From the NCBI GenBank assembly GCA_015064345.1, contig SVSK01000007.1, forward strand, positions 1 through 52,487: a DNA stretch of 52,487 nt, read 5' to 3'. Position numbers and translations under genes: made by a program. Below, in pieces: positions 26,796 through 49,289 of this stretch. The stretch is from Oscillospiraceae bacterium (GTDB taxonomy: Bacteria; Bacillota; Clostridia; Oscillospirales; CAG-272). The notes under the pieces were generated by a model. That model did not search any database. It had not been told where the DNA came from and was given only the letters and a program-made list of their open reading frames with translations. Position 1 is the first letter of the stretch; every line of letters starts with the position of its first letter.

Positions 26796-28061
26796 TTGGC
26801 AAACAAAAACAAATTCAATTTTGAAGTTCCGGGTATTCTAATCTTTATCGGATTCTGCGTCAACCCCGCGATCGGAATAATTATGGCTGTGCTCCGTACT
26901 ATTTCAAGAAACATTGCAAAAGAAGCGGAAGCCGCCTCAAAGAAAAGCGGTAACCCGTACTATCATACGTCGATGAGGGGCGACAGTGCCCACTACGGTT
27001 CAAGTGCAAAGGCTAAGTCAAAGAGGAAAAAATCCTCTCCCGCATACAAGCTTATGGTTGCCGGTATCATCGCGTGTTTGGCATTTGCAATCATTGGCGG
27101 AATCTCAGTTGAGTTGTTCAGCCTGTCATTCAGATCAATGGTCGGAGCTTTCAGTGTTGCTGTGCTTCCCTTCCTGATTGGAGCCGGTGGATTCTACCTC
27201 GGTTCAAAAGTTGTCAAAAATCGTGACGTTCGATTTGACCGCATCAGAACACTCATCGGCAGTCGCGACAGTCTCAATCTTACAAAGATCGCCGTCGCAT
27301 CAAACGAAAGTCTCAAGCGCATCAGACGGGATCTTCAAAAGATGATCGACGACGGTGAGTTTGGTGATAGAGCTTACATCGACCTTGGCACAAACAACTT
27401 TATGAGAACCCCCGACGCAACTCCCGATGAACCCGAGCAGTTTGATTACCGCAAGGTTTACGGAAATGTGTTCAAAAATGAGGCGAAGGCAGAAAAGCCT
27501 CAGACAAAGGGCGAATCGAGTGCCAAATCTGGAGAAAAATCCTCTGACAGAGACAACTTCGACACGATACTGTGCGAGATCCGACGTCTCAACGACGATA
27601 TCAAGGATGACGAGGTGTCTGATCGCATCTACAAGATCGAAGCGCACACCAAAAACATCTTCGATTACGTCACCGATCATCCCGAAGCAATGCCGCAGAT
27701 CCGCACGTTCATGAACTACTACCTGCCAACGACCTTGAAGCTTCTTGAATCCTACAGCAGGATTGAGCGTGTAGGTGTTGCGGGCGAGAACATGAAGAAG
27801 TCTAAGGAGAACATCGAGAAAACTCTTGATATGCTTGTCACGGGCTTTGAGGGTCAGGTTGACCAGCTGTTCAAGAACGAGTCGATCGACATTTCCACCG
27901 ACATCAGCGTGCTCGAAACAATGATGCAGAAAGACGGCATCGGCACAAAGAACTACGATATTGCCTCAATGCTCGCTGAATACACCGACGAGATCAGCGA
28001 TGATCTCACAGACGAAGCGGGCGGAGCAGGCGGCGCGGCGGCACAAAAAAGAAAAGAATAA
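26796..28061 (+). CDS. XpaC-like membrane protein (5-bromo-4-chloroindolyl phosphate hydrolysis family)
   Basis: 421 residues. An N-terminal hydrophobic segment, then two further helices (about 85-110 and 118-142), a variable charged linker, and a C-terminal helical domain with IRTFMNYYLPTTLKLLESYSRIE, which marks the XpaC family. Bacillus XpaC is named from a phosphatase screen, but its true role is unknown; relatives are often next to TelA toxic-anion genes, absent here. It starts with TTG at 26796, behind AAAGGAG. Confidence 0.8.
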   Translation: MANKNKFNFEVPGILIFIGFCVNPAIGIIMAVLRTISRNIAKEAEAASKKSGNPYYHTSMRGDSAHYGSSAKAKSKRKKSSPAYKLMVAGIIACLAFAIIGGISVELFSLSFRSMVGAFSVAVLPFLIGAGGFYLGSKVVKNRDVRFDRIRTLIGSRDSLNLTKIAVASNESLKRIRRDLQKMIDDGEFGDRAYIDLGTNNFMRTPDATPDEPEQFDYRKVYGNVFKNEAKAEKPQTKGESSAKSGEKSSDRDNFDTILCEIRRLNDDIKDDEVSDRIYKIEAHTKNIFDYVTDHPEAMPQIRTFMNYYLPTTLKLLESYSRIERVGVAGENMKKSKENIEKTLDMLVTGFEGQVDQLFKNESIDISTDISVLETMMQKDGIGTKNYDIASMLAEYTDEISDDLTDEAGGAGGAAAQKRKE

Positions 28062-28067
28062 CAAAAG

Positions 28068-28100
28068 AAAAGTATGGACTCGACGTGAATCCATACTTTT
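28068..28100. terminator. Bidirectional terminator
   Basis: AAAAGTATGGA and TCCATACTTTT form a perfect stem between the convergent XpaC-like and carrier genes; it closes the fumarate-reductase operon. Confidence 0.9.
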
Positions 28101-28115
28101 GTTTATGTTTGGTTA

Positions 28116-29303
28116 TCAGATCATAATAAGAATCTTCGCCACCAGCACGACTGCAACAAGTGCAACGGGATAAGTAGCCGCATAAGCCGCAGCCACCTCA
28201 TCAGTACCGGCTGTGGAGATAAGCGCACCGAGAGCGGGTGTAGAGGTCATACCTCCGGTAATAGAGCCAAGGTTATTGAAGATACCGAGCTTGAACACAT
28301 ATCTTGCGAAGATGTAACCCACGATCATAGGGATAGTGGTAAGAGCAACGCCGTAGAGGAAATATTCAAGCTGGAGATTTTCAACAAACCGTACACCACC
28401 CGGAACACCTGCCCCGATAAGGAACAGCACAAGACCAAGCTCGCGGAACACGTTAAGATTGTTCTTGCTTACTCTCATATCAATAGGTCCAATGTGAGCA
28501 AAGTGACCGAACAGGAGACCGGACACCAGTGTGCCGCCGGAGGTACCAAGTGAGAAGTTGGTTCCGGGGATCTTGATGGAACCTATGATAACGCCCACTG
28601 CAACCGCCAGGAAGAAGGGGAAGAAATCAAGAGAATCAAGCTTTATGAGCTTACGCTTGGGCTCGGGAATGGTGATCATACCTGCCGCAACGAATGCCTC
28701 GCGCTCCTTTGCAACATCAACCTTCAGAATCTTCGGCATGAGCTGAACGAACAGCACAACGCCAAGCACACCGTAGATATACGCAATGCCGTAGCCCGCT
28801 GTAGCCGCGTTGGATACTTCCTCAGCCACACCTTCTGTAGCCGCAGAAAGACCGGGAGTACTTGTAAGACCGCCTGTGAGAAGTCCCACAACCATACCTG
28901 CGTCAACCTTAAAGATAAGGATAATAGCAACAGCAACAAGGGCGCCGGATGCGATGACGATAAGTCCCATGAGGATGTATGCAAGAGACTTTTTGTTCAT
29001 CGTTCTGAAGAACTTGGGCCCTGCTATATATCCCACGGCGGTCACAAACAATGCTGTGCCGATACTCGAGAACACCTTGAAGCCTGCGGGATCATAAAGA
29101 GATATCTCCGCACCGCCGAGAGTAAATGAGGGGATATAGTTCACAAGAATACCGTAGACAAGTGCCACAAGAAGCACGCCTGCAGTACCGAGAGACACGC
29201 CTTTGATGCTGATGCCGCCTACAAGATATCCCACAGCACCGATTGCAAAGGCGATAAAGATAAGTGAAAACATGGAGTCAAGAACTCCGCCGAGAAATGC
29301 CAT
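28116..29303 (-). CDS. AspT/AAE-family membrane carrier, possible dicarboxylate exporter
   Basis: 395 residues, about 10-11 membrane helices in two repeats. Each repeat carries the family motif: GGLTSTPGLSAATE and GGMTSTPALGALIS. This is the aspartate:alanine exchanger (AAEx, Asp-Al_Ex) family, but without the central TrkA-C regulatory domains of AspT. Last of 12 genes in the fumarate operon, 15 nt after frdA, so export of succinate or exchange of C4-dicarboxylates is the best inference. Confidence 0.8.
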   Translation of the reverse strand: MAFLGGVLDSMFSLIFIAFAIGAVGYLVGGISIKGVSLGTAGVLLVALVYGILVNYIPSFTLGGAEISLYDPAGFKVFSSIGTALFVTAVGYIAGPKFFRTMNKKSLAYILMGLIVIASGALVAVAIILIFKVDAGMVVGLLTGGLTSTPGLSAATEGVAEEVSNAATAGYGIAYIYGVLGVVLFVQLMPKILKVDVAKEREAFVAAGMITIPEPKRKLIKLDSLDFFPFFLAVAVGVIIGSIKIPGTNFSLGTSGGTLVSGLLFGHFAHIGPIDMRVSKNNLNVFRELGLVLFLIGAGVPGGVRFVENLQLEYFLYGVALTTIPMIVGYIFARYVFKLGIFNNLGSITGGMTSTPALGALISTAGTDEVAAAYAATYPVALVAVVLVAKILIMI

Positions 29304-29318
29304 GATGCTCGCCTCCGA

Positions 29319-30935
29319 TTAAACCTTTCTTGTATAGTCAGGCAGGAGCTTGGGAGACTGAACGGTGGACTCAACGCCGCATTCAGCCAGTTCCGCTTCA
29401 AATTTTGCTATATGGTCAAGTGTAAGTGCGCCGAGAGTTACGTTCTTTGCCCGCTCGGATGCCTGCTGACCTGCGTTTCTACCGAATACGATGATGTCAA
29501 GCAGCGAGTTGCCCATAAGTCTGTTTCTGCCGTGGATACCGCCTACTACTTCACCTGCGGCGTAAAGGTTCTCTACCCCTGTCATGCCGTCAGCGGAAAT
29601 ATCAAGACCGCCGTTCTGGTAGTGAAGTGTGGGATATACGAGGATGGGCTCTTTTCTGATGTCGATACCGTACTTACCGAACATACGGAGCATTGCGGGG
29701 ATTCTCTTCTCGATTGTTCCCTCGCCGCCCTTAAGCTCGATCATGGGAGTGTCAAGCCACAGACCAAGTCCGTCGGATGTTTCAAGTCCGTTGCCGCGGT
29801 CAGTGCACTCACGGATAATGGATGCCGCAGAAACATCACGGGTCTCCAGAGGATGCATGAATACCTCACCATTTGCGTTAACAAGCTTTGCGCCCAGCGA
29901 ACGCACCTTCTCTGTTACAAGTGCACCGAAGATCTGCTCGGGGAATGCAGCGCCTGTGGGGTGATACTGAAGTGTGTCTGCATAAAGAAGCTTTGCACCT
30001 ACTCTGTAACCGAGTACAAGACCGTCCGCTGTTGCACCGTAGTGGTTGGATGTGGGGAATCCCTGATAGTGGAGTCTGCCCGCGCCGCCCGTTGCCATGA
30101 TAACAGTCTTTGCTCTTGCTACAAGAAGCTCACCTGTTTCCATGTTCTTGAGTACTGCACCTGCACACTTGCCGTTCTCGTCAAGGATAAGCTCGATTGC
30201 AGATGTAAAGTCGATTACCGGAATACCGCAGTTGAGTACTTCATCACGAAGTGTTCTCATGATCTCAGCACCGGAGTAGTCCTTTGCCGCGTGCATTCTC
30301 TTTCTGGACGTACCACCGCCGTGGGTCGTTACCATTGTGCCGTCGGGAGTCTTGTCGAATTCAACACCAAGCTCGTTGAGCCACTGAATAGCCTCGGGGG
30401 CGTCGCACACCAGCTTACGGAGAAGCTCGGGCTTTGCCGCAAAGTGACCGCCGCCAAACGCATCAAGATAGTGGATAGCAGGGCTGTCGTTAGGCTTATC
30501 AGCCGCCTGGATACCGCCCTCTGCCATCATTGTGTTAGCGTCGCCAATTCTGAGCTTTGTTACGATCATTGTGCTCGCGCCGTTCTTATGTGCCTCGATA
30601 GCCGCAGATGCACCCGCACCGCCGCCACCGATAATGAGAACGTCTACGTCATAGTCGATCTTTGTAAGATCCACATCAGATGCGCTGATCCTGCTCTTTC
30701 CCTGGAGAAGTGCAGCCAGCTCTGTGGGTACCTTGCCACCCTTGTTTACGCCTGCCTTCAGAACTTCAAACTCGCTCTGCTTGTAGTCGGGGTGATATGT
30801 TGCAAGAAGGGTCTCCTTCTCTTCTGCTGTCATTCTGCGAGGCTCGAATGCTGTATTAGCTGCTCTTGCCGCTTCCACCTTTTTCATGGATTCGAGCATC
30901 GCTTCGGTATATACCGCTGTTCTCTTTTCTACCAT
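29319..30935 (-). CDS. Fumarate reductase flavoprotein subunit, soluble type
   Basis: 538 residues. FAD-binding GGGGAG (103-108) begins a FrdA/SdhA-like domain. Catalytic residues of fumarate reductases are present: His325 in HPTG, Arg366 in TRDVSA, His438, and Arg472 in NRLMGNS. The His that covalently holds FAD in quinol-linked enzymes is Asn134 (NTMMAEGG), so FAD should be non-covalent, as in L-aspartate oxidase. A roughly 90-residue N-terminal extension precedes the Rossmann fold, and the usual C-terminal helical domain is shortened. It should reduce fumarate to succinate with electrons from the FrdB-like protein upstream. Confidence 0.9.
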   Translation of the reverse strand: MVEKRTAVYTEAMLESMKKVEAARAANTAFEPRRMTAEEKETLLATYHPDYKQSEFEVLKAGVNKGGKVPTELAALLQGKSRISASDVDLTKIDYDVDVLIIGGGGAGASAAIEAHKNGASTMIVTKLRIGDANTMMAEGGIQAADKPNDSPAIHYLDAFGGGHFAAKPELLRKLVCDAPEAIQWLNELGVEFDKTPDGTMVTTHGGGTSRKRMHAAKDYSGAEIMRTLRDEVLNCGIPVIDFTSAIELILDENGKCAGAVLKNMETGELLVARAKTVIMATGGAGRLHYQGFPTSNHYGATADGLVLGYRVGAKLLYADTLQYHPTGAAFPEQIFGALVTEKVRSLGAKLVNANGEVFMHPLETRDVSAASIIRECTDRGNGLETSDGLGLWLDTPMIELKGGEGTIEKRIPAMLRMFGKYGIDIRKEPILVYPTLHYQNGGLDISADGMTGVENLYAAGEVVGGIHGRNRLMGNSLLDIIVFGRNAGQQASERAKNVTLGALTLDHIAKFEAELAECGVESTVQSPKLLPDYTRKV

Positions 30936-31012
30936 ATCTATATTATCATGCCTTTCTTTGCATTTGCGGAACTATATCTAAAAAATCAGTTATCTTCCGG
31001 GCGCAAATGAGT

Positions 31013-31058
31013 GTCTGAAACAACTCACTTACGATTTCCGGTCGCTTCATTTTCAGAC
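31013..31058. promoter_or_regulatory. Intercistronic inverted repeat between frdB- and frdA-like genes
   Basis: GTCTGAAA (31013-31020) and TTTCAGAC (31051-31058) are perfect arms in a 134-nt gap, the largest inside the operon. Possible processing or stoichiometry element. Confidence 0.4.
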
Positions 31059-31069
31059 GGACCTTCCTT

Positions 31070-31744
31070 TTACTTCTCGATTTCTCTGTTGTTGTAAAGC
31101 TCTTTCATCTCGGAAACAGGCTTCTGCATAAGTGCCTCTATCAGCTCCTCAAAGGTGCCGTCCTTGATCTCGCGTACTCTGTCTTCCAGATGCTCGGACT
31201 TTGGAGCAAGATACTTGCCGTTGATTCTTCTTGCAAGCACGCCCACCTGGGGATGAGAGATACCTGCAGGGCAACGGGATGAACATACACCGCACATTAC
31301 GCAGTCGAAGGATTCTTCAGCGCAAGCCTCAAAGTCACCTCTCTGTGCGTATGCAATGTACTGCATTACATTAAGTCCCTGTGTGCAAGCCTTTGTACAA
31401 GCGTTGCATCCGATGCAAGAGTAGATCTCAGGGTAAAGCTGCATCATTACAGCTTCGCTCTGTGGAACGGTCTCAATATCATATACCTGCTTTACAAGGG
31501 GGAAGAAAGGCAGAGTTGCCACGTACATTCCCTCTTCTACCTTGGTCTGGCAAGCGAGACAAGCCTTAAGCTCACGCTCGCCCTTGATTCTGTAGATAGT
31601 AGCGCAAGCACCGCAAAATCCGTTTCTACAGCCGCATCCGCGAACAAGCTGGTAGCCTGCGTATTCCATTGCTCCCATAATGGTAAGGTTAGAAGGCACT
31701 TCATACTTCTTACCGAACAGGAACACGTTTACTGTATTTTCCAT
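31070..31744 (-). CDS. Fumarate reductase iron-sulfur subunit (TfrB/HdrC-like), no membrane anchor
   Basis: 224 residues. N-terminal [2Fe-2S] ligands (Cys39, Cys44, Cys47, Cys62 in CRNGFCGAC and ACLAC) are followed by two [4Fe-4S] motifs, CIGCNACTKAC and CVMCGVCSSRCP. It resembles the first part of methanogen thiol:fumarate reductase TfrB but lacks TfrB's C-terminal HdrB-like CCG domain, and no SdhC/D or FrdC/D anchor is encoded. It should pass electrons from the Hdr/Flx complex to the FAD of the next gene. Confidence 0.88.
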   Translation of the reverse strand: MENTVNVFLFGKKYEVPSNLTIMGAMEYAGYQLVRGCGCRNGFCGACATIYRIKGERELKACLACQTKVEEGMYVATLPFFPLVKQVYDIETVPQSEAVMMQLYPEIYSCIGCNACTKACTQGLNVMQYIAYAQRGDFEACAEESFDCVMCGVCSSRCPAGISHPQVGVLARRINGKYLAPKSEHLEDRVREIKDGTFEELIEALMQKPVSEMKELYNNREIEK

Positions 31745-31771
31745 AATATATCTCCAAATTTAAGTAATATC

Positions 31772-32602
31772 TTAATACTCGTCGGGAAGCTCTGAAAGCT
31801 CATCCATTCTGAACACAGGACCGTCCTTGCAAACGTATTTTGCACCAACGTTGCATCTGCCGCACTTGCCGATTCCGCACTTCATCTTCAGCTCAAGTGT
31901 GGTGTAGATCTGTGTTTCCTCAAATCCAAGCTCTTTAAGCCCTGCAAGGGTGAACTTGATCATGATCGGAGGTCCGCAGAGAACTGCCACCTTGTTTGTA
32001 TCAAAGCCAAGCTCTTTTACATAGTTCGGCACAAATCCAACGTGACCGTCCCAGCCTTCCTGTTCTCTATCAATGGTAAGATGAACGTGAACATCACGAT
32101 CGTCATTCATCCATTCATTCACGATCTCATCGTAGAACGCGAGGTCTTCCTTGGAACGGGCACCGTAAACGATGTCTATTCTGCCGTAGCGGTCGCGATA
32201 ATGTCTGCAGTAATTGATCACGGAACGCACAGGAGCCATGCCAACGCCACCTGCAATAATAAGCAGATCATGTCCCGCAAACTCGTCGTCTACGGGGAAT
32301 GCGTTACCGTATGGTCCGCGAACTGTGATCTCCTGACCGGGCTCGATCATGTGAAGCCAATTTGTCAGGCATCCGCACTTCTTGATTTCAAACTCGAGAT
32401 ATTCTTCGTTGGTGGGAGAGGATGTTATGGAGAACATTGCCTCGCCGATTCCGGGGAGTGACACCATTGCGCACTGTCCCGGCTTGTGGATAATGGGCTT
32501 CTTACCGTCTCTGCCAACCACGCGGAAGTTTTTAATATCAGGTGTGTCTACTCTTACGTCGGTAACCACACCAACTACGGGGATAAGTGTTTCAAAATTC
32601 AT
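31772..32602 (-). CDS. FAD/NAD(P)-binding oxidoreductase subunit (FlxA-like, AsrB/HydG family)
   Basis: 276 residues. An FAD-binding beta barrel (KPGQCAMVSLP, MFSITSSPT) and a nucleotide domain (IIAGGVGMAPVRS, VLCGPPIM) are followed by a C-terminal [2Fe-2S] motif CGIGKCGRCNVG. The family includes sulfhydrogenase gamma subunits, AsrB and PyrK. In FlxABCD complexes this is the NADH-oxidising entry point. It starts 2 nt after the upstream FeS gene stops. Confidence 0.88.
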   Translation of the reverse strand: MNFETLIPVVGVVTDVRVDTPDIKNFRVVGRDGKKPIIHKPGQCAMVSLPGIGEAMFSITSSPTNEEYLEFEIKKCGCLTNWLHMIEPGQEITVRGPYGNAFPVDDEFAGHDLLIIAGGVGMAPVRSVINYCRHYRDRYGRIDIVYGARSKEDLAFYDEIVNEWMNDDRDVHVHLTIDREQEGWDGHVGFVPNYVKELGFDTNKVAVLCGPPIMIKFTLAGLKELGFEETQIYTTLELKMKCGIGKCGRCNVGAKYVCKDGPVFRMDELSELPDEY

Positions 32603-32604
32603 CT

Positions 32605-33627
32605 TTACTCCTCCTCACCCAGCGTTTTCATTACTTTTACAATGTTCATTGATATCGGGCAGGACGCAAGACATCTTCCGCAGCCTACGCAACCGAATTC
32701 TCCGTTGTTGTTTTCGGGGAAATACACAAGCTTGTGCATAAATCTCTGACGGAATCTCTCCTTCTGGGTAAGGCGATTGTTTCCGTGTGCCATCTTTGTA
32801 AAGTCTGAGTACATACATGAGTCCCAAGTTCTGAATCTCACTACTCCGTGGCCTGTGTCAAAGTCCTTGATATCGTAGCACTGGCATGTTGGGCAAACGA
32901 ATGTGCAGGTACCGCAAGCAATGCACGCTTCGGAGAGTGATGCCCAGTTTTTGTCGTTCCAGAACTCTTCTGTCTTGCCTCCGCCAAACTTTGCTGTATC
33001 GATATTGGACAGAGGAAGCAGGTCAATGATCTCTTTTGTCTTTGCCTGTGCTGCTTCTGCGGGAGTACTGTCTCTGTCTTCGAAAATGTCTCCGAGAGAA
33101 TCAACAAATGCACTTCCCTTTTCTGTCTTCGCTTCAATGAAGTAGCCGCCGTCAGCTTCAGTGAACACTACGTCTCCTTCGGGAGCAGATGCGTCAATAC
33201 CGAATGCCTTACAGAAGCAGGTCTCTTCAGGTCTACGGCATGCCATGGAAATGATAACTCCGTGTTCACGTCTGTTCTTGTAGTATGTGTCTACAGGTTC
33301 TGCGAGGAACACCTTATCAAGGATAGAGAAACTTCTTACGTCACAAGCGCGAACTCCGAAGATAGCGAAGTCTTCTGTTTCACGTCTCGGGTCGATGATC
33401 TCGATCTTACGGTCAGTCATCTTGAACTCTACAAGGTTCTCAGTCTGTGGGAAGAAGAAATCCTTTGCGCTTCTTGTGGTGTGGAGTTTTTCGGATACCT
33501 TTGTTCCGCTCTTCCACTTCTTGTATGCTGAATTTGTACCATCCGTGTCTACGGGAACGTATACGTTCAGCTTTTTTGATGCAGCTTCAAAAAACTGCTC
33601 AAGGTTTGTTTTCGCGATGTATTTCAT
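32605..33627 (-). CDS. 4Fe-4S dicluster protein (FlxB-like; HydB/AsrA family)
   Basis: 340 residues. The N-terminal domain (FGVRACDVRSFSILD) is that of sulfhydrogenase beta and AsrA subunits. Two clusters follow: CIACGTCTFVCPTC (about 245) and CVGCGRCLASCP (near the C-terminus). It is predicted to wire the NADH-oxidising flavoprotein to the rest of the complex. ATG overlaps the previous stop (TAATG). Confidence 0.85.
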   Translation of the reverse strand: MKYIAKTNLEQFFEAASKKLNVYVPVDTDGTNSAYKKWKSGTKVSEKLHTTRSAKDFFFPQTENLVEFKMTDRKIEIIDPRRETEDFAIFGVRACDVRSFSILDKVFLAEPVDTYYKNRREHGVIISMACRRPEETCFCKAFGIDASAPEGDVVFTEADGGYFIEAKTEKGSAFVDSLGDIFEDRDSTPAEAAQAKTKEIIDLLPLSNIDTAKFGGGKTEEFWNDKNWASLSEACIACGTCTFVCPTCQCYDIKDFDTGHGVVRFRTWDSCMYSDFTKMAHGNNRLTQKERFRQRFMHKLVYFPENNNGEFGCVGCGRCLASCPISMNIVKVMKTLGEEE

Positions 33628-34601
33628 TATTCCATCCCCCTTTCGCGTACGATTGAGGGTTCTGCATCGTCGTATGTAAAGGAGATGAGGGGGTGCTTTA
33701 CGTCTTCATCCTCGCCTGCCTGATATTCGCCGTAAAGCTCGTCCATATCCTTGATGAACTTTCTGTTCAGTAGGTGAAGCGGAATATGCTCGGGGCATAC
33801 TCTGGAGCACTCGCCGCAGTCAGTACATCTGCCCGCTACGTGATATGCTCTGATGATGTGGAACAGCTTTTCTTCAAAGGAATCTGCCGCCGCCTTCTGA
33901 GCCACACCTGATGCGGGATTATCAAATACGCACTGCTCGCAGGTACAAGCGGGGCACACATTACGGCAAGCATTGCAGCGGATGCATCTGGAAAGCTCAC
34001 CCTGCCAGAACTCGAATCTCTCCTCAGAGGTCATCTGCTCAAGCTTTTCTACAAGGTCAAATCTGCCCGAGTTTGCGATCTCCTCGCCGTCCTCGCCAAT
34101 GATCTCGTCATATGCCGCCAGTTTCTTTGATTTGCAGGTGATGCATCTGTCAGCCATAACGTCCGCTTTTGCTACAGTCTCGTCGCCGTACACGGTCTTT
34201 ACGGTGTAGTTGTCTCCATCAGCCTCGATACCAACAATACCGCTGATACCTCTCGCCTTGATCTTCTCTACGTCCGCTTTTCCTTCGCAACCTACGCCGA
34301 TAACGTAAATCTTTTCTCTGTCTACTCTCTTCTCAGCTGTAAGCTGGTTGAGAGAATAGGTATCGCAGGGCTTTAAGAATACAAGAGTCTTGCCGTCCAG
34401 TGTCTTTACCTTAAGCAGATACTTTGACACGTTTGCGGCGGTAAAATCGTCATATACGAAGTCTTTTTCTATCTCATCAGCTGTCTCGAATATTGCAGGC
34501 GTTGCATCGTATGCAAACTCGCCCTTCTTCCAGCCGATCACTCTTGCCACCTCACCGGACTCGAGAAGCTCGATGGCTCTTTTTTTCATTACTTCTTGCA
34601 T
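33627..34601 (-). CDS. 4Fe-4S protein (FlxC-like)
   Basis: 324 residues. The N-terminal part resembles FrhB-like domains (VFLKPCDTYSLNQL, VIGVGCEGKADVE), then two cluster motifs CIRCNACRNVCPAC and CTDCGECSRVCP. An additional CITC at about 170 may hold a further metal. GGAGG lies 7 nt before its ATG. It overlaps the MvhD-like gene by 13 bp. By order and domain content it is the second FeS subunit of an FlxABCD-type module. Confidence 0.82.
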   Translation of the reverse strand: MQEVMKKRAIELLESGEVARVIGWKKGEFAYDATPAIFETADEIEKDFVYDDFTAANVSKYLLKVKTLDGKTLVFLKPCDTYSLNQLTAEKRVDREKIYVIGVGCEGKADVEKIKARGISGIVGIEADGDNYTVKTVYGDETVAKADVMADRCITCKSKKLAAYDEIIGEDGEEIANSGRFDLVEKLEQMTSEERFEFWQGELSRCIRCNACRNVCPACTCEQCVFDNPASGVAQKAAADSFEEKLFHIIRAYHVAGRCTDCGECSRVCPEHIPLHLLNRKFIKDMDELYGEYQAGEDEDVKHPLISFTYDDAEPSIVRERGME

Positions 34602-35026
34602 CTGAGGTCCTCCAATCTGCGGTTAGGTCCAAGGCTTGTGATCTCTTCTACAAAGCTGTTCATTGTTGCAGCAAACTTTGCGCCCTCTGCAGCAGAGACC
34701 CATTCGAGGCGGGTTCTCTTTCGCTCAATACCCATAAAGTCGAGCATTGAGAACAGCATTGTCATTCTGCGTCTTGCATAATAGTTACCCGTTGTATAGT
34801 GGCAGTCTCCGGGATGGCATCCGCAGATAATAACACCGTCCGCGCCTCTCTGGAATGCACGGAGAATGAACATGGGGTTCACTCTGCAGGAGCAAGGCAC
34901 GCGGATGATCTTTACGTTCGCGGGGTACTGCAGGCGGTTGGTTCCCGACAGGTCAGCACCTGCGTAGGAGCACCAGTTGCAACAAAACGCAACGATTGTG
35001 GGTACAAATTTTTCGTTTACTTGCAT
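34589..35026 (-). CDS. MvhD/FlxD-like hydrogenase iron-sulfur (delta) subunit
   Basis: 145 residues. FCCNWCSYAGAD, VPCSCRV and CGCHPGDCHY are the signatures of MvhD, the small [2Fe-2S] protein that connects electron-donating modules to HdrA in bifurcating complexes. Its gene sits between hdrA (10-bp overlap) and flxC-like (13-bp overlap), the expected structural junction. Confidence 0.93.
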   Translation of the reverse strand: MQVNEKFVPTIVAFCCNWCSYAGADLSGTNRLQYPANVKIIRVPCSCRVNPMFILRAFQRGADGVIICGCHPGDCHYTTGNYYARRRMTMLFSMLDFMGIERKRTRLEWVSAAEGAKFAATMNSFVEEITSLGPNRRLEDLRCKK

Positions 35027-37008
35027 ATTGCGTCAACCTCCGCCATGATCTGTTCGTTTGAGAATCCGTAGAGGTCCATTGCAGTTGACGGGCAGGTTAC
35101 GGTACATGCGCCGCATCCCTGACATACTGCGGGATTTACATATGCTACTCTTCTCATCTTTGTTGTTCTGTCTGCCATTCTGAATTCCTTTTCGGAATAT
35201 GTGATAGCACCGTAGGGACATACGTTTGCACACTGGCCGCATCCGTTACACATGAGCTCGTCTGAATGTGCTACGCAGGGGTTGCAGGTCAGCTTGTCCT
35301 TTGCGAGAAGTCCCACTACCTTTACCGCGCAAGCACTTGCCTGAGATACGGTTTCGGGAATATCCTTCGGTCCCTGGCACGCGCCTGAGAGGAAGATACC
35401 TGCTGTGGGAGACTCAACGGGACGAAGCTTTGCGTGTGCTTCCGTGAAGAAGTCGTTTGTGTCCATACTTGCTGTAAGCATTGTCGCAAGAGGACGTGCG
35501 GACTTATCAGGCTCAATTGCGGCTGCAAGAACCACAAGGTCAGCCTTGATGTGAAGCTGTTCGTTCATGATAAGGTCGGAGCCCTGAACGTCAAGTGTTC
35601 CGTCTGCTCTGGGTACTACCTTACCGACAGCGCCCTTTATGTAGTGTACGCCGTAGTCCTCAACCGCTCTGCGATAGAACTCGTCAAAGTTCTTACCGGG
35701 TGTGCGGACGTCGATATAGAACACGTACACGTCTGTATCGGGGTACTTTTCTCTTGTGAGCATCGCGTGCTTTGCCGTGTACATACAGCAGATCTTTGAG
35801 CAGTAGCTCTTTCCCTTTTCGGGTGTGCATCTTGAGCCAACGCACTGGATGAAAACGATGGTGTGGGGATGCTTTCCGTCGGAGGGACGAAGAAGTGTGC
35901 CAGATGTAGGCCCTGCCGCATTGGTAAGACGCTCAAACTCAAGAGATGTGATTACATCCTTGGACTGTGAGTAAGCGTACTCGTCGTACTTATCAACCTT
36001 AATGGGGTTAAAGCCTGTTGCCACTACGATAGCGCCGTACTTTTCCTCAATGATCTGATCCTGCTGCTTGTAGTCGATAGCACCAACGGAGCAGATCTTC
36101 GCGCAAACACCGCACTTGCCGCTTTTCAGCATCGTGCAGTAATCCGCGTCGATAGTTGCGATCTTCGGCACAGCCTGTGCAAATGGGATGTATATTGCAC
36201 GTCTGTTGTCCATGCCCATGTTGAACTCGTTGGGCACCTTCTTCTGTGGGCACTTTTCCGTACAAAGTCCGCAGCCGGTACATTTTGTCTCGTCTACGTA
36301 ACGGGCTTTTCTCTTGATCTTTACTGAGAAGTTACCAACGAATCCGGAAACAGACTCAATTTCGCTGTAGGAGTATATCTTGATCTTCTCGTGCTGTGCG
36401 CAGTCTACCATTTTGGGCGTGAGAATACATGCCGCACAGTCAAGGGTGGGGAATGTCTTGTCGATCTGGGTCATCTTACCGCCGATGGTGGGGTTCTTTT
36501 CTACGATGTCAACCTCGTATCCCGCCTCAGCAATGTCAAGGGCTGTCTGGATGCCCGCAATACCGCCGCCGATGACCAGTGCTCTCTTTACAACAGGGCT
36601 TTCTCCCGCGGTAAGAGGAGCGTTGAGGAGCACCTTAGCGATGGCAGTTCTTCCGAGGATGATTGCCTTTTCTGTCGCTTCTTCTATATTTTTATGTATC
36701 CAGGAGCACTGCTCTCTGATGTTTGCGATCTCAACCATATAGGGGTTAAGACCTGCGGCTGTTGCTGTTTTTCTGAATGTTGCCTCGTGCATACGGGGTG
36801 AGCAGGAGCAAACTACGATGCCTGTAAGTCCGTATTCACGGATAGCATCCTTGATCATGTTCTGTCCCGCTTCTGAGCACATGTACTGGTACTCAACTGA
36901 AAGCGCAACTGAGGGTTCACGGCCGAGAGCTTCTGCAACTGCTTTTACGTCAACCGTAGCCGCGATGTTTGTACCGCAATGGCACACAAATACACCAATT
37001 TTTTGCAT
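35017..37008 (-). CDS. hdrA: Heterodisulfide reductase subunit A-like, bifurcating FAD protein
   Basis: 663 residues. N-terminal Cys-rich domain (FVCHCGTN, VVCSCSPRMHE), then FAD-binding GGGIAGIQ (about 147), the conserved TFPTLDCAACILTPKM loop, an inserted ferredoxin motif CTGCGLCTEKCP, and two C-terminal motifs CNGCGQCANVCP and CQGCGACTVTCP. HdrA carries the FAD that performs electron bifurcation in methanogens and other anaerobes. No methanogen genes are present; here it is embedded in a fumarate-reducing operon. GGAGG ribosome site; overlaps the MvhD-like gene. Confidence 0.95.
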   Translation of the reverse strand: MQKIGVFVCHCGTNIAATVDVKAVAEALGREPSVALSVEYQYMCSEAGQNMIKDAIREYGLTGIVVCSCSPRMHEATFRKTATAAGLNPYMVEIANIREQCSWIHKNIEEATEKAIILGRTAIAKVLLNAPLTAGESPVVKRALVIGGGIAGIQTALDIAEAGYEVDIVEKNPTIGGKMTQIDKTFPTLDCAACILTPKMVDCAQHEKIKIYSYSEIESVSGFVGNFSVKIKRKARYVDETKCTGCGLCTEKCPQKKVPNEFNMGMDNRRAIYIPFAQAVPKIATIDADYCTMLKSGKCGVCAKICSVGAIDYKQQDQIIEEKYGAIVVATGFNPIKVDKYDEYAYSQSKDVITSLEFERLTNAAGPTSGTLLRPSDGKHPHTIVFIQCVGSRCTPEKGKSYCSKICCMYTAKHAMLTREKYPDTDVYVFYIDVRTPGKNFDEFYRRAVEDYGVHYIKGAVGKVVPRADGTLDVQGSDLIMNEQLHIKADLVVLAAAIEPDKSARPLATMLTASMDTNDFFTEAHAKLRPVESPTAGIFLSGACQGPKDIPETVSQASACAVKVVGLLAKDKLTCNPCVAHSDELMCNGCGQCANVCPYGAITYSEKEFRMADRTTKMRRVAYVNPAVCQGCGACTVTCPSTAMDLYGFSNEQIMAEVDAICK

Positions 37009-37023
37009 TTTTGCTCTCCTCCT

Positions 37024-37407
37024 TTATTTTGCGTACTTTCTCATTGCCGTCATGAGCAGCTGACCGGGGGTGTCCTCGTCAAGTAATGCGGGAATATCGT
37101 CTGACTTCAGATGATTCTTTCCCTGCTGACGGATCACCTCAAGGCGTACTGCTTCCACTACCTTTGCAGGCTCAACACCACGGGGGCATCTCTCCACACA
37201 GGCAAAGCAGGTGAGGCACTTGTAGATAGACTCGGACTCCATCAGCTTTTCGATGTTACCCTCGTTTACCATAGCCACAAACTGATGAGGATGGTATTCC
37301 ATCTCATCGTATGACGGGCATGTTGCAGAGCATTTTCCGCATTTCATGCACTTTCTTACTTCTGCTCCGCTCATTCGAAGGATCTGTTCTTTTCTCTTCT
37401 GTTCCAT
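37024..37407 (-). CDS. hdrC: Heterodisulfide reductase subunit C-like
   Basis: 127 residues. Two [4Fe-4S] motifs, CMKCGKCSATCP (about 21-32) and CLTCFACVERCP (about 64-75), relay electrons between HdrA and HdrB. It lies 11 nt after hdrB and 15 nt before hdrA, with a strong ribosome site. Confidence 0.93.
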   Translation of the reverse strand: MEQKRKEQILRMSGAEVRKCMKCGKCSATCPSYDEMEYHPHQFVAMVNEGNIEKLMESESIYKCLTCFACVERCPRGVEPAKVVEAVRLEVIRQQGKNHLKSDDIPALLDEDTPGQLLMTAMRKYAK

Positions 37408-37418
37408 CTCGATCCTCC

Positions 37419-38201
37419 TTAGTCTATGAGACCGAGCGCTTCTGCCAGCACTTCGGTGAAGTATTTTACTTCTATCTTCTCGTCTGCGTTCTTCTTAAGA
37501 TTGTACTCGCAGAGGGGGCACGCTGTGATCATAAAGTCCGCACCCATTTCGGTAGCGTTCTCAGCCACTGCACTTGCTCTCTTCTTTGCCGCATCCTTGT
37601 CTTCAAGGGTAATATATCCGCCGCAGCATTCGTTACGCATTGAGTACATTACAGGCTCAGCACCCAGAGCACGGATGAAGTCTTCCATGATCTTCGGGTT
37701 CTCAGGATCGTCAAACTTCAGTACACTTGACGGGCGGAGAAGCAGGCAGCCGTAATATGCGGCGATCTTCTTGCCGGTGAGGGGCTTTACTACTGCTTCC
37801 TTGATCTTATCAAAGCCAACTTCGTCACGGAGCATTTCAAGGAAGTGGATAACTTCTCCTTCCCCGTGATACTCCATATCGGGTGCCATGTAGTTGTTCA
37901 CTCTTCTGTCAAAGTCGGGGTTTACTTTGAACTCGTTGTTTGTCTGCTTCAGAACATTGTAGCAAGCGGAGCAAACGGTGAGCACTCGTCCGCCGTTGTC
38001 ATATCCGTTCTTCAGTGCTCTGACGGAGGGCAGTTTGGTTGCAATTTCATCCTTTGCGGAGGTATATGCACCGCCACAACACTGCCAATTTTCTATTTCG
38101 CAAAGCTCTATTCCAAGTGCAGCCGCCGATTCTCTTGCATATCTGTCAAGATCCTTCGCCTTGTTCTTCAGCGTGCATCCGGGATAATATGCTACCTTCA
38201 T
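37419..38201 (-). CDS. hdrB: Heterodisulfide reductase subunit B-like
   Basis: 260 residues with two CCG domains: Cys9, WQCCGG and CSAC in the first; YGCLLLR, ECCGG and CPLC in the second. These bind the non-cubane [4Fe-4S] clusters of HdrB, where disulfides are reduced in methanogens. Since no CoM/CoB exists here, it may hand electrons to the FrdB-like protein or a small thiol. It is first of the hdr genes and 33 nt after fumC. Confidence 0.93.
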   Translation of the reverse strand: MKVAYYPGCTLKNKAKDLDRYARESAAALGIELCEIENWQCCGGAYTSAKDEIATKLPSVRALKNGYDNGGRVLTVCSACYNVLKQTNNEFKVNPDFDRRVNNYMAPDMEYHGEGEVIHFLEMLRDEVGFDKIKEAVVKPLTGKKIAAYYGCLLLRPSSVLKFDDPENPKIMEDFIRALGAEPVMYSMRNECCGGYITLEDKDAAKKRASAVAENATEMGADFMITACPLCEYNLKKNADEKIEVKYFTEVLAEALGLID

Positions 38202-38234
38202 ATCTTCTCTCCAAAATTTAGTTTTCGCTGTTTA

Positions 38235-39620
38235 TCAGAGATTTCCTGCCATCTCTTCGGGCTTGAATACTTCGTCAAACTTCTCTGCTGTAAGGAATCC
38301 AAGCTCTACGCACGCTTCCTTCAGAGAAATGTTGTCCTTGTATGCCTTCTTCGCAGTCTTTGCCGCATTTTCGTAGCCAATGTAGGGGTTGAGCGCCGTT
38401 ACGAGCATAAGGGAGTTGTAAAGGTTATCGTGCATCTTCTGCTCGTTTGCGCGGATTCCGATAGCGCAGTTATCGTTAAAGGAAACGATTGCTTCTGCGA
38501 GAAGTCGGCATGACTGCAGGAAGTTGTAGATGCACACAGGCATGAACACATTAAGCTCAAAGTTACCCTGAGATGCTGCCATTGTTACTGCCACGTCGTT
38601 ACCCATTACCTGTACCGCTACCATTGTTACCGCTTCGCACTGGGTGGGATTTACCTTGCCGGGCATAATGGAAGAGCCGGGCTCGTTCTCGGGAATTGTG
38701 ATCTCACCGATACCAAGTCTCGGACCGGATGCAAGCCAACGAACGTCATTTGCTATCTTCATCATGTCGCAAGCAAGGGCCTTAATTGCTCCGTGAGCGA
38801 AAACAAGCTCGTCCTTGGACGTGAGTGCATGGAACTTGTTTTCCGCTGTCTCAAAATCCTTACCTGTGATTGCGGAAACTGCCTCTGCTACCTTTGTGTC
38901 AAATCCTACAGGTGCGTTGAGGCCTGTTCCCACTGCTGTACCGCCCAGAGCGAGAGTCTTAAGTGCAGGGAGAGACTTTTCGATAAGTGCGATGTCCATT
39001 TCAAGGGAGGAACGCCAACCGGAGATCTCCTGGCTGAATCTGATGGGTGTTGCGTCCTGAAGATGTGTTCTGCCGCTCTTGGTAATTCCCTCGTGCATCT
39101 TTTCAAGGCGACGGAATGTGGTGATAAGCTTTGCAACCGCGGGAATGAGCTTGTCTTCAAGAGCTTCTACTGCCGCGATGTGCATTGCTGTGGGGAAAGT
39201 ATCGTTGGAAGACTGGCTCATGTTGATGTCGTCGTTGGGGTGACACAGTTTCTTGCCTGCAAGCTCGTTTGCGCGGTTTGCGATAACCTCGTTTGCGTTC
39301 ATGTTAGACTGTGTGCCGCTACCTGTCTGCCATACTACAAGGGGGAAATGCTCGTTAAGCTCTCCTGCCATTACCTCGTCACAAGCCTGAGAAATATATA
39401 CGAGCTTTTCATCAGTCATCTTCTGAGGACGGAGCCGGTTATTCGCGATAGCGGCCGCTTTTTTCAGCACACCGAATGCCTTGGTGATCTCGCGGGGCAT
39501 TGTTTCAATTCCAACACCGATCTTGAAGTTTTCGTGGCTACGCTCTGTCTGCGCTGCCCAGTATTTGTCAGCAGGCACTTTTACCTCGCCCATTGAGTCA
39601 TGTTCGATTCTGTATTCCAT
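38235..39620 (-). CDS. fumC: Fumarate hydratase class II
   Basis: 461 residues, the standard length. SGSGTQSNMNANEV, the GRTHLQDATP region and the GSSIMPGKVNP signature identify class II fumarase. It interconverts malate and fumarate without an FeS cluster, so it is oxygen-stable. Between the dehydrogenase and hdrB genes, it most likely supplies fumarate to the reductase of the same operon. Confidence 0.97.
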   Translation of the reverse strand: MEYRIEHDSMGEVKVPADKYWAAQTERSHENFKIGVGIETMPREITKAFGVLKKAAAIANNRLRPQKMTDEKLVYISQACDEVMAGELNEHFPLVVWQTGSGTQSNMNANEVIANRANELAGKKLCHPNDDINMSQSSNDTFPTAMHIAAVEALEDKLIPAVAKLITTFRRLEKMHEGITKSGRTHLQDATPIRFSQEISGWRSSLEMDIALIEKSLPALKTLALGGTAVGTGLNAPVGFDTKVAEAVSAITGKDFETAENKFHALTSKDELVFAHGAIKALACDMMKIANDVRWLASGPRLGIGEITIPENEPGSSIMPGKVNPTQCEAVTMVAVQVMGNDVAVTMAASQGNFELNVFMPVCIYNFLQSCRLLAEAIVSFNDNCAIGIRANEQKMHDNLYNSLMLVTALNPYIGYENAAKTAKKAYKDNISLKEACVELGFLTAEKFDEVFKPEEMAGNL

Positions 39621-39639
39621 GTTTATTCCCCTTTACGAT

Positions 39640-40587
39640 TTATATGTTCAAGCTTTTAATTACTGCTTTGAGACTGTCTGCACTCTTTCTGAGCAATACT
39701 TGTTCTGCTTCTGTGAGCACAGGATTAAGTTTTCCGCGAATTCCGTCACGTCCGATGATGCTGAGTGTGCTGAGACAAATGTCATCAATGCCGTATTCAC
39801 CGTGCATCATTGTTGAGATGGTCAAAGTCGTGTCCGTTGCACTGAGCAGGCATTTGCAGATGTGGCAAACGGAAAGAGATACCGCATAGAAGGTAGCGCC
39901 CTTACGCTGGATTACTCTCGCGCCGGACTTTTTCATGTATGCCTCTACCTCTTCCTTGTTCAGCGAGGGATAGAGGTTGCTTTCGCTGTTTATTACGTTG
40001 TGATATTCGTGGATCGGCACGTTGGAGATATTGGCGATGGACCACGGAACAAAGGAGCTGTCACCGTGCTCACCGAATACGTACGCGTGTACGTTCTGCT
40101 GGTTGATGTTATAGTACTCCGAGATTCTCGCACGAAGTCTGGATGTATCGAGAATAGTACCGGAACCGATTATCTTTGTTTCAGGCAGATCGGAATACTT
40201 GCACCAAACGTATGTGAGAACGTCCACAGGGTTTGACACGATTATGTATGTTGCATCCGGTGCATATGTAGTGATCTGGGGGATGATGGACTTGATTATA
40301 TCAACATTGGTCTGTGCCAAATCAAGTCTTGTCTGTCCGGGCTTTCTTGCCACGCCTGATGTAACGATCACTATGTCTGAGTCACACGCATCGCGGTAAG
40401 AGCCCGCATATATAACAGTACCGGGAGAGCAGAAAGGCAAGCCCTGACGGATATCAAGAGCTTCGCCGAGTGCCTTTTCTCCGTTGATGTCGATAAGCAC
40501 AATTTCGTTTGCAAGTCCTTTCACCGCAAGAGTATAAGCAACGGTAGAGCCAACACTTCCCGCACCGATTATCGAAATTTTTGCCAT
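39640..40587 (-). CDS. Lactate/malate dehydrogenase family, predicted malate dehydrogenase
   Basis: 315 residues. NAD-binding GAGSVG (8-13); catalytic His174 in FGEHGDS, Asp147 and Arg150 in LDTSRLR, and Arg87 on the mobile loop. The overall sequence is LDH-like (IGSGTILDT), but the specificity position (Gln102 in lactate dehydrogenases, Arg in malate dehydrogenases) is Arg81 in VARKPGQTR. That favours oxaloacetate/malate, and the next gene is fumarase. An automatic pipeline would probably call it L-lactate dehydrogenase. First gene of the operon, with a promoter at 40641-40669. Confidence 0.85.
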   Translation of the reverse strand: MAKISIIGAGSVGSTVAYTLAVKGLANEIVLIDINGEKALGEALDIRQGLPFCSPGTVIYAGSYRDACDSDIVIVTSGVARKPGQTRLDLAQTNVDIIKSIIPQITTYAPDATYIIVSNPVDVLTYVWCKYSDLPETKIIGSGTILDTSRLRARISEYYNINQQNVHAYVFGEHGDSSFVPWSIANISNVPIHEYHNVINSESNLYPSLNKEEVEAYMKKSGARVIQRKGATFYAVSLSVCHICKCLLSATDTTLTISTMMHGEYGIDDICLSTLSIIGRDGIRGKLNPVLTEAEQVLLRKSADSLKAVIKSLNI

Positions 40588-40640: not shown

Positions 40641-40669
40641 ATTATATCAAATATCGCCCCAAAATTCAA
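40641..40669 (-). promoter_or_regulatory. Promoter of the malate-to-succinate operon
   Basis: On the minus strand, TTGAAT (40669-40664), 17 nt, TATAAT (40646-40641). It is the only clear promoter seen for the 12 genes down to 28116. Confidence 0.85.
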
Positions 40670-40745: not shown

Positions 40746-40777
40746 AACAAAAAAGGGTCAGCTTTTTCACTAACCCT
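40746..40777 (-). terminator. Terminator of the UDP-GlcNAc 2-epimerase gene
   Basis: On the minus strand AGGGT (40777-40773) pairs with ACCCT (40758-40754), with AG/CT inside, followed by TTTTTTG. Confidence 0.75.
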
Positions 40778-42126: not shown

Positions 42127-42162
42127 TAAAAAAGTCGTAGGACATAGTCCTGCGACTTTTTT
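42127..42162 (+). terminator. Terminator of tRNA-Val
   Basis: GTCGTAGGAC and GTCCTGCGAC pair (one G-T) around ATA, with A6 before and T6 after. Its right arm is the first element of the 153-bp repeat. Confidence 0.9.
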
Positions 42163-42489
42163 AATTGAGTTAATTGGCCTGAGAAGCAGTATCGAGATGC
42201 CGACGCTGACTGACAAGTATAATTCACCCGCAGGCATCTCGTAACTTTGCTTGCAAAGTAGTGGTTCGATGTGGTAAACTGCGAAACGCGTAATTGACAC
42301 GCCTGCGACTTTTTTACTTGAGTTAATTGGCCTGAGAAACAGCATCGAGATGCCGACGCTGACTGACAAGTATAATTCACCCGTGGGCATCTCGTAACTT
42401 TGCTTGCAAAGTAGTGGTTCGATGTGGTGGACTACGAAATGCGTAATTGACACGCCTGCGACTTTTTTAATTGAGTTAATTGGCCTGAG
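42151..42489. repeat. 153-bp tandem direct repeat, 2.2 copies
   Basis: Copy 1 is 42151-42303, copy 2 42304-42456, and a partial third copy runs to about 42489. Copies 1 and 2 differ at about 9 of 153 positions, mostly transitions. Each full copy holds inverted arms CGAGATGCC/GGCATCTCG about 34 nt apart and the palindrome ACTTTGC-TT-GCAAAGT, and begins with TGCGACTTTTTT, the right arm of the tRNA terminator. No gene is seen in 42127-42510. Repeat identity is unknown to me. Confidence 0.9.
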
Positions 42490-42510: not shown

Positions 42511-43491
42511 TTAAAGCAAATCGTCACTGTCGGCTCTTTTGAAAAATGATGTCTTCGATGTTGAACTGTCTTTATATGTCTTTGCCGGTTCTATCGGTGA
42601 TTTTGGCACTTCCGGTTCAGGCTTTTCCGCGACATGTTCGGGTTGTGACAATTTAGCAAACACTTGATTAAGTGTGGGTCTCATCTCCGGATCCTTATTC
42701 AGCATTGCTGCAATCTGCTCCGCAATATTCTCCGGTATAGATTCATCAATTGCTATCTCACCTTCATCCAATACAGCCTCAAATGCGTATGTGTATTTCT
42801 CTGTGTCGAAATGAGGTAGATTTCCCGTATAATACTGATGAAACAGTAGTCCTAAAGCAAATACGTCTACTTTGCTGTTTATTGTTCCCTCTTCATTCGC
42901 AATAAGCAAAAATGCTTCAGGTGCAAAATAAACCATGTCACCTTGGAGTTCATTGAATGACGGCGGTGAAGATTCAAGAAAACTGCTGTCAAAGTCGATC
43001 AACTTAGTAGTGTATGCGAACTTTGTTTTCTTGATAATAACATTGTTAGGCTTAATATCACCATGCACAATACCTTTGGCATGAAGCTGCGACAAATTAA
43101 ATGCAAGAACCTTTATAAGTACCGATTTTTCGTATGAGGTTAACGAGCTCGAAATACTTGAAACATCCATTTTATCAGAATCTATCTTGTCAGTCACTAT
43201 ATAATATTTACTGCCATGTCTGAAAAAATCCTTGATTACTACGATGTTTCCGGTATCACATTCATTTAGCCGATTATAAAGTGCACGCTTGCGCTTTTCA
43301 AAATCGCTGCATACAGCTCTTTTCCTTTGGATCTGAGAGAAATCAATAGGAGAATCATCGGGAGGATAGACCGGAGTAAGAAATTCTTTAATGAAATATT
43401 CAGTTTTGTTTTTCGTTGCAAATCCCCACTTGGCAAATCCGCTGTCATCATTTTTCAGCTCACCAAGCAGTTTATATTCCCCTATCTTCAT
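42511..43491 (-). CDS. Serine/threonine protein kinase of a TerY-P triad
   Basis: 326 residues. The kinase domain (about 1-275) has catalytic Lys in YFIKEFL, catalytic loop HGDIKPNN, a DFG motif changed to DFD (LIDFDSS), APE in YFAPEAF, and DVFALGLLF in subdomain IX. The glycine-rich loop is degenerate. A Pro-rich linker follows, ending SFFKRADSDDLL, which resembles the tail of the 45208-46344 protein. Its ATG overlaps the phosphatase stop by 4 bp. Kinase, PP2C and vWA genes side by side form the TerY-P triad known from comparative genomics. Confidence 0.9.
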   Translation of the reverse strand: MKIGEYKLLGELKNDDSGFAKWGFATKNKTEYFIKEFLTPVYPPDDSPIDFSQIQRKRAVCSDFEKRKRALYNRLNECDTGNIVVIKDFFRHGSKYYIVTDKIDSDKMDVSSISSSLTSYEKSVLIKVLAFNLSQLHAKGIVHGDIKPNNVIIKKTKFAYTTKLIDFDSSFLESSPPSFNELQGDMVYFAPEAFLLIANEEGTINSKVDVFALGLLFHQYYTGNLPHFDTEKYTYAFEAVLDEGEIAIDESIPENIAEQIAAMLNKDPEMRPTLNQVFAKLSQPEHVAEKPEPEVPKSPIEPAKTYKDSSTSKTSFFKRADSDDLL

Positions 43492-49276: not shown

Positions 49277-49289
49277 ACAATCACCCCAT

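Follow-up and report, generated by a model that had tools for sequence, protein, structure and literature searches.

A Clostridia operon combining Flx-Hdr with fumarate reductase genes, and the changing partners of FrdAB across the phylum

A fumarate reductase encoded together with Flx-Hdr was described in 2020 for Pseudoclostridium thermosuccinogenes as part of a 'succinate operon' (CDQ83_RS03365-03315; PMC7282089, which cites the preprint 10.20944/preprints201912.0288.v1). In the passages of that paper used here, Flx-Hdr is placed at RS03360-30 and the fumarate reductase at RS03325-20 (Fig. 5c), and RNA-seq found the operon up about 4-fold under CO2 limitation, with significance not for all subunits. 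Functional links have also been proposed, in the excerpts we draw on, for tfrAB-korABCD-flxABCD-hdrABC clusters in tubeworm symbionts and Thioflavicoccus (PMC6315080) and for a Tfr-Mvh-Hdr cluster in Ca. Celaenobacter (PMC8542988). Here we analyzed 52,487 nucleotides from an Oscillospiraceae bacterium (contig SVSK01000007.1; this whole stretch is called the window), which carry at 28116-40587 on the minus strand an operon for malate dehydrogenase (MDH), fumarase, HdrABC, FlxABCD, FrdAB and a carrier. Likened by gene order as described in those passages, the P. thermosuccinogenes operon and ours have in common the succession of fumarase, Flx-Hdr, fumarate reductase and putative succinate carrier as well as the proposed coupling of NADH, ferredoxin and fumarate, but the operon as listed there is without MDH. 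This kind of operon and its interpretation are therefore already described, and the reading is plausible, not new; the preliminary description of the window, which knew of no experimental account of the combination, holds only in part, since the same order and idea were printed with RNA-seq data and related tfrAB clusters are on record. New in this analysis is the comparative angle, namely the partner swapping of FrdAB across classes of the phylum. For the window we consider it probable that a soluble HdrABC-FlxABCD-FrdAB reduces fumarate in a fermentative succinate branch, with NADH electrons bifurcated to fumarate and ferredoxin.

Twelve co-directional open reading frames (ORFs) fill the interval, as had been stated before, and the gaps between them range from -13 to +33 bp with the sole exception of frdB/frdA (Table 1). 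This gap (30936-31069, 134 bp) is the only long one of the operon, and the ribosome site of frdA looks weak. The one clear promoter also claimed before was recovered as a promoter-like site with 10/12 matches, among the two best of 12 such sites in the region, and the two minus-strand terminator-like sites with the most pairs are the two flanking the operon. As shuffles gave 13.3 promoter-like sites, their count carries no meaning, and it is the position of the promoter and the two terminators that does; terminator-like sites were in excess (23 vs 11.6 in shuffles). The linkage of the operon genes is far above chance. Pfam and NCBIfam support the gene identities of the preliminary description; for the first gene, profile and specificity residue disagree. 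Its product passes the L-lactate dehydrogenase (L-LDH) profile model and its closest solved chain, 1y6j, is named LDH, but an Arg precedes KPG in the window protein, in 1y6j and in all 48 relatives covered (a further one is uncovered). We take Arg at this specificity residue to mean a malate-type dehydrogenase, and L-lactate dehydrogenase was rejected as the function. The absence of a membrane anchor, likewise proposed earlier, holds for the ten operon proteins scanned with Pfam, none of which belongs to an anchor subunit family; the carrier is of the AspT type, a family that according to an excerpt of PMC9527358 takes in a succinate exporter.

Table 1. Positions, strand and basis of assignment for the operon genes and their flanking signals (window coordinates)
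Feature	Position	Strand	Basis
Promoter-like site TTGAAT-17-TATAAT, TG ahead of second hexamer (extended -10)	40641..40669	-	motif scan and sequence read
Terminator-like site 3' of upstream wecB-like gene	40754..40777	-	terminator scan
NAD-dependent malate dehydrogenase, LDH-like family, Arg before KPG	39640..40587	-	profile, residue check
fumC, class II fumarate hydratase	38235..39620	-	TIGR00979 over cut-off
HdrB, two CCG stretches, ligand sets CX31CCX34CXXC and CX39CCX34CXXC	37419..38201	-	Pfam/NCBIfam, alignment
HdrC, two CxxCxxCxxxC [4Fe-4S] sites	37024..37407	-	Pfam/NCBIfam, alignment
HdrA, flavin adenine dinucleotide (FAD) and multi-[4Fe-4S] subunit, candidate bifurcation site	35017..37008	-	Pfam/NCBIfam, 5odc alignment
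FlxD / MvhD	34589..35026	-	PF02662 FlpD
FlxC iron-sulfur protein	33627..34601	-	Pfam/NCBIfam
FlxB iron-sulfur protein, HydB/ShyB/AsrA-like	32605..33627	-	Pfam/NCBIfam
FlxA FAD/NAD(P)H-binding subunit, HydG/ShyC/AsrB/PyrK-like	31772..32602	-	Pfam/NCBIfam
FrdB, one 2Fe-2S site, two CxxCxxCxxxC [4Fe-4S] sites, without CCG domain	31070..31744	-	Pfam/NCBIfam, alignment
FrdA, fumarate reductase flavoprotein, Asn134 at covalent-FAD His place, short C-terminus	29319..30935	-	Pfam/NCBIfam, PDB match, alignment, model
AspT-family carrier, candidate succinate exporter	28116..29303	-	PF06826 twice, other Pfam domains not found
Terminator-like site 3' of carrier gene, operon end	28068..28100	-	terminator scan

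FrdA matches Frd/Sdh chains in the PDB, and its predicted model, taken for the fold alone at a mean predicted local distance difference test (pLDDT) of 75.4, has E. coli FrdA 1kf6_A as first fold match (E 9.9e-26); the prediction for FrdB (mean pLDDT 47.8) was left unused. The His, Thr-Glu, Arg, Arg, His and Arg that presumably act as dicarboxylate-site residues are invariant in FrdA (93-94 of 93-94 covered relatives, with 5-6 of 99 rows uncovered), and all 98 covered sequences have Asn where the covalent-FAD His would be. The best NCBIfam match is TfrA, but FrdA is not classed as such because it reaches 342.4 bits against a cut-off of 718. It also stays under the cut-off of the NadB equivalog (268.5 vs 452.75 bits), and a FrdB gene adjoins it; among the 25 best of the 60 NCBIfam models listed, including TfrA, NadB and Frd/Sdh, no cut-off is passed. 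The N-terminal extension of about 95 residues (window 30651-30935), modelled as mostly helical with a pLDDT of ~78-91 from residue 11, had no match in a Pfam scan and is conserved in FrdA of the near and distant loci examined. As a docking mark for Flx-Hdr it was discarded for lack of specificity, as FrdA aligns from residue 6-9 in 20/20 distant loci, including those without Flx-Hdr. FrdB keeps its 2Fe-2S site and two complete CxxCxxCxxxC sites in 100/100 rows, and with four Cys at both clusters it lacks the third centre with three Cys, in our reading [3Fe-4S], that is typical of quinone-facing enzymes. On the TfrB model it scores 38.3 bits (cut-off 385), and a fused CCG domain was not found in it. 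The best stretches on the 488 positions of this model are 19-94 for FrdB, 124-220 for HdrC and 262-487 for HdrB, so that what is one protein in TfrB seems to be divided among several in the operon.

The Desulfovibrio vulgaris FlxABCD-HdrABC operon is reportedly without FrdAB, its acceptor being thought to be a thiol/DsrC-type disulfide. The seven subunits of that system (Ramos et al. 2015) are shared by the window operon, where they are adjacent and where the HdrA cluster ligands (by eye vs 5odc) and the non-cubane ligands of HdrB are intact. HdrA aligns end to end with the solved HdrA 5odc (E 1.8e-204), whose cysteines, in the alignment read by eye, are all matched save one in an FRRC stretch, and its probable ligand cysteines show little or no variation among relatives. 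It reaches 783 bits on the HdrA2 model (cut-off 1100), the final part of which corresponds to the separate FlxD here. Both CCG ligand sets of HdrB are retained in 79/79 relatives, and HdrB scores alike on the SdhE (157.6 bits) and HdrB (154.5 bits) models. The sequences of HdrA and HdrB hold no sign of lost bifurcation, and no proof of bifurcation.

Counting the genome that bears the window (G000, contig C16; 2.0 Mb, 79% complete), FrdB is present in 30/59 relatives (E 1e-20) and in 54/391 genomes of the class (E 1e-15). From these two sets 20 diverse carrier loci were drawn, and 17 of them show the nine-gene core HdrB-HdrC-HdrA-FlxD-FlxC-FlxB-FlxA-FrdB-FrdA contiguous and in the same order (in L074 with HdrA in two pieces). 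Two more are interrupted by contig ends and agree up to there, and the last one, L081 of genome G323, has all nine genes as FrdB-FrdA-HdrB-HdrC-HdrA-FlxD-C-B-A. We also compiled 80 named loci, the best ones among at least 487 that were confirmed, and hence close kin. The core is contiguous in all 57 of sufficient length, FumC stands immediately before HdrB in 55 and MDH-FumC is present in 38 of the 59 with sufficient upstream length, and a carrier gene follows FrdA in 52 of the 62 with sufficient downstream length. A ruminant gut site is named in 38/80 locus titles, for example water buffalo rumen for L102. The bacterium is of the Clostridia type with close relatives found in animal guts, and this kind of operon is widespread. 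An apparent FlxA-FrdB fusion in G005 (503-aa open frame) was rejected, the two genes sitting in different frames. Two side observations concern single loci: in L081 an aldehyde:ferredoxin oxidoreductase gene (PF01314/PF02730) comes after the rearranged nine genes, and L141 and L153 place the operon in two metagenome-assembled genomes labelled Treponema (FrdB 80-82% identical), by inter-phylum transfer or mis-binning.

To look beyond the class, 20 distant loci were picked, spread over families and scores, from the 38 other positives of a FrdB profile search in the phylum (39/398 genomes with G000 counted, E 1e-20). Complete Flx-Hdr plus FrdBA occurs in two of them (L184; L193 with L194, in G323 order), and G495, from a different class, has the identical rearranged nine-gene set as G323. 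Three loci carry HdrC-HdrB-FrdB-FrdA without HdrA or Flx in the stretch (L186, L188, L191), and three others HdrA and FlxD with clear FlxA/FlxB missing (L181, with just 4.2 kb upstream; L182; L187). A 662-aa ORF upstream of HdrCB-FrdBA in L186, suspected to be a concealed HdrA, proved to be a DctM-type transporter gene. According to Pfam matches of chosen neighbours, FrdBA lies near a Fer4/cytochrome b561 membrane protein in L174, L177 and L178, near NapC-type cytochromes in L175 and L180 and near an FMN-binding/Fer4 protein (FMN, flavin mononucleotide) in L192. Carbon enzymes are encoded nearby as well, with fumarase and malic enzyme in L190, malic enzyme in L180, pyruvate carboxylase in L179, a PrpD-type enzyme in L174 and a succinyl-CoA-ligase-type gene (ATP-grasp_2 and Ligase_CoA) after FrdBA in L187 and L192. 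In a rapid FrdA tree with 51 rows (the window, 20 carriers, 20 distant loci and 10 from the 80 named), obtained by a short search with 15 of 48 branches weak and some long ends, the Flx-Hdr linkage changes at least 5 times. Judged from these sequences, FrdAB seems to act on C4 acids while drawing electrons from several sources. The varied neighbourhoods back fumarate as the substrate, in support of the earlier proposal that it is the likely high-potential acceptor, and HdrB as the direct neighbour of FrdB; at the same time they tell against FrdAB always implying Flx-Hdr.

Genomic partners were compared between 45 carriers (G000 and 44 of the 53 other class carriers, with completeness of at least 90%) and 35 non-carriers, mostly of G000's order, the samples not being kinship-matched. 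For RnfC only matches over the cut-off were counted, weak ones being common, and either RnfC or an [FeFe] hydrogenase is present in 45/45 carriers. G000 itself encodes RnfC, D, an FMN-binding RnfG-like protein, E, A and B in a single run together with an NADH-dependent [FeFe] hydrogenase HydA of group A6 over the cut-off, and the two outlets for reduced ferredoxin named in the preliminary description are thus encoded in this genome. A second Rnf-like cluster (L163, contig C14) consists of RnfC, a member of the NQR2/RnfD/RnfE family, a protein of 392 aa in which FMN-binding stretches occur twice, and RnfB. A GTP-dependent phosphoenolpyruvate carboxykinase (GTP-PEPCK) over the cut-off was found in 27/45 carriers, G000 among them, and ATP-PEPCK, searched in G000 and not in the other carriers, was not found there. 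UbiA, used as a proxy for quinone synthesis, has no match in G000 and is over the cut-off in 5/45 carriers, with none in the remaining 40. A full Fer2_3 match, as in conventional SdhB/FrdB, is restricted to 3/45 carriers (G314, G161, G233; none in 42), and the sole, weak match in G000 is the operon FrdB itself. Although absences in G000 are weakened by its completeness of 79%, Rnf, the group A6 hydrogenase, GTP-PEPCK and the lack of a UbiA match are in keeping with a quinone-free system.

From the genes, their order, the ligands, the catalytic residues and the genomic partners we infer complex formation, direct HdrB-FrdB transfer, bifurcation and the direction of the reaction. Oxaloacetate would be reduced to malate by MDH, dehydrated to fumarate by FumC and converted to succinate, which the carrier probably exports, the final step being probably the work of HdrABC, FlxABCD and FrdAB joined in a soluble complex. 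FlxA would take the hydride from NADH and pass the electrons via FlxB/C/D to the HdrA flavin, where they would be split, one travelling by way of HdrC and the HdrB non-cubane clusters straight to FrdB, the FrdA flavin and fumarate, and the other to ferredoxin (Fd). The net reaction would be 2 NADH + fumarate + oxidised Fd -> 2 NAD+ + succinate + Fd(2-), and the reduced ferredoxin would be reoxidised by Rnf or the [FeFe] hydrogenase. With E0' values of +33 mV for fumarate and -320 mV for NADH (PMC5861303) and a ferredoxin potential of -400 to -500 mV (given in an excerpt of PMC12773636), we computed -33 to -53 kJ/mol for this reaction from standard potentials.

It is rather unlikely that HdrA is a mere relay and that both NADH electrons run through Flx-Hdr-Frd to fumarate without bifurcation. 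Such a reaction alone is strongly exergonic (-68 kJ/mol, computed), and RnfC over the cut-off is missing in 20/45 carriers; against it stand the HdrA cluster ligands, retained as judged by eye and including the C-terminal two-cluster part that is thought to serve ferredoxin, and the presence of Rnf or [FeFe] hydrogenase in all 45 carriers, though the hydrogenase is equally common in non-carriers. A thiol relay as for methanogen TfrAB, where HdrABC-Flx reduces a disulfide and thiols instead of HdrB feed FrdAB, appears quite unlikely. While both CCG ligand sets of HdrB are kept in 79/79 relatives and Flx-Hdr is described, in the passages of PMC7282089 used, as handing electrons on to ferredoxin and thiols, a CCG domain for thiol oxidation is missing from FrdAB, the operon holds no second CCG protein and there are stretches with HdrCB-FrdBA in which neither HdrA nor Flx is found. 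The missing CCG domain and the HdrCB-FrdBA loci favour HdrB as a wire to FrdB over such a relay. That FrdAB acts on another enoate or dicarboxylate, with fumarate being incidental, would fit its scores under the cut-offs of the 25 best of 60 listed NCBIfam models, but is very unlikely given the invariant fumarate-site residues, fumC immediately before hdrB in 55/59 named loci of sufficient length and single distant FrdBA loci next to fumarase, malic enzyme or pyruvate carboxylase. Hardly credible is the reverse operation, in which succinate oxidation would confurcate with reduced ferredoxin to yield NADH: the reactions are formally reversible and L192 and L187 have a succinyl-CoA-ligase-type gene after FrdBA, yet this direction is endergonic by 33 to 53 kJ/mol, MDH, FumC and GTP-PEPCK suit the reductive branch, and Asn takes the place of the covalent-FAD His, at which E. 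coli FrdA mutants are said to have lost succinate oxidation.

Several results weigh against bifurcating fumarate reduction by Flx-Hdr-Frd as the general explanation. No Hdr/Flx gene was found around FrdBA in 12/20 distant loci, where the stretches cover 2.1-13.2 kb on the upstream side of FrdB and at least 3.8 kb on its downstream side, the rest of the genomes was not searched and L178 and L189 offer only 2-2.5 kb upstream; other ways of driving FrdAB therefore probably exist. The conserved hdrABC-flxABCD-frdAB order, named before as a check, holds within the class and breaks down across the phylum. FumC adjoins HdrB in only 4/20 diverse genomes. RnfC over the cut-off is rarer in carriers (25/45) than in the kinship-unmatched non-carriers (32/35), which means that re-use of ferredoxin by Rnf is not general and leaves Rnf unsupported as an obligatory partner, and [FeFe] hydrogenase is equally common in both (43/45 vs 34/35), so its presence says nothing specific. 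In P. thermosuccinogenes addition of H2 nearly abolished succinate formation, where the authors see a fit and the link is indirect (PMC7282089, passages as above). A biochemical study of a Flx-Hdr-Frd complex was not found among the papers listed by searches of the open PMC (PubMed Central) library, and to this extent the preliminary description was right; a fumarate reductase of Blautia luti was assayed with methyl viologen in 2026, according to the excerpt of PMC12773636.

Beyond this class FrdAB looks like a plug-in module for which Flx-Hdr is not obligatory. As a tentative synthesis we suggest that FrdAB may be a plug-in fumarate-reducing head whose electron source was swapped several times within the phylum (Flx-Hdr, HdrBC alone, HdrA-MvhD, cytochrome b561, NapC/FMN proteins) and which in Clostridia became tied to Flx-Hdr, giving a cytosolic bifurcating NADH:fumarate reductase of nine subunits in which the HdrB non-cubane clusters would simply conduct electrons to FrdB and would not be a disulfide site; it could then be the soluble counterpart of fumarate respiration for quinone-less gut bacteria. 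If this is true, many gut and rumen Clostridia that lack quinones would have in the formation of succinate both an electron sink and a source of reduced ferredoxin, which via Rnf or H2 would shift the ATP and hydrogen balance, and HdrB would be a case of an electron wire whose receiving enzyme is not a disulfide reductase. The series of FrdAB module swaps might offer natural controls for which partner feeds FrdB.

Elsewhere in the window, a protein matching PF10112 (Halogen_Hydrol) is encoded at 26796-28061, convergent with the operon end. A 153-bp tandem repeat (42149-42489; 2.2 copies, 94% matches) adjoins a protein kinase gene at 42511-43491, a 923-aa ORF (46568-49339) spans 72-bp repeats, and the window ends in an 18-bp repeat of 25 copies (52033-52484).

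Thiol:fumarate reductase TfrAB is soluble and quinone-free. The window proteins resemble it in that TfrA is the best NCBIfam match of FrdA and that FrdB, HdrC and HdrB cover successive parts of TfrB, but FrdA remains below the TfrA cut-off and has an extra N-terminal part, and FrdB and the CCG parts are separate proteins. 8-Methylmenaquinol:fumarate reductase and SdhE-type enzymes, which face the membrane and quinones, share with our system a CCG protein (SdhE) working with FrdAB, and HdrB scores equally on the SdhE model. In contrast to quinol:fumarate reductases (FrdABCD/SdhABCD), the window operon is without anchor subunit, covalent-FAD His and three-Cys third centre, and G000 is without a UbiA match; unlike L-aspartate oxidase NadB, FrdA is below the NadB cut-off and has a FrdB partner. 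With the clusters of PMC6315080 and PMC8542988, as far as the excerpts used describe them, the window operon shares the grouping of a fumarate reductase with Flx-Hdr or Mvh-Hdr, whereas those clusters differ by their context of reverse tricarboxylic acid cycle carbon fixation, by the naming of TfrAB and by the inclusion of a 2-oxoglutarate oxidoreductase.

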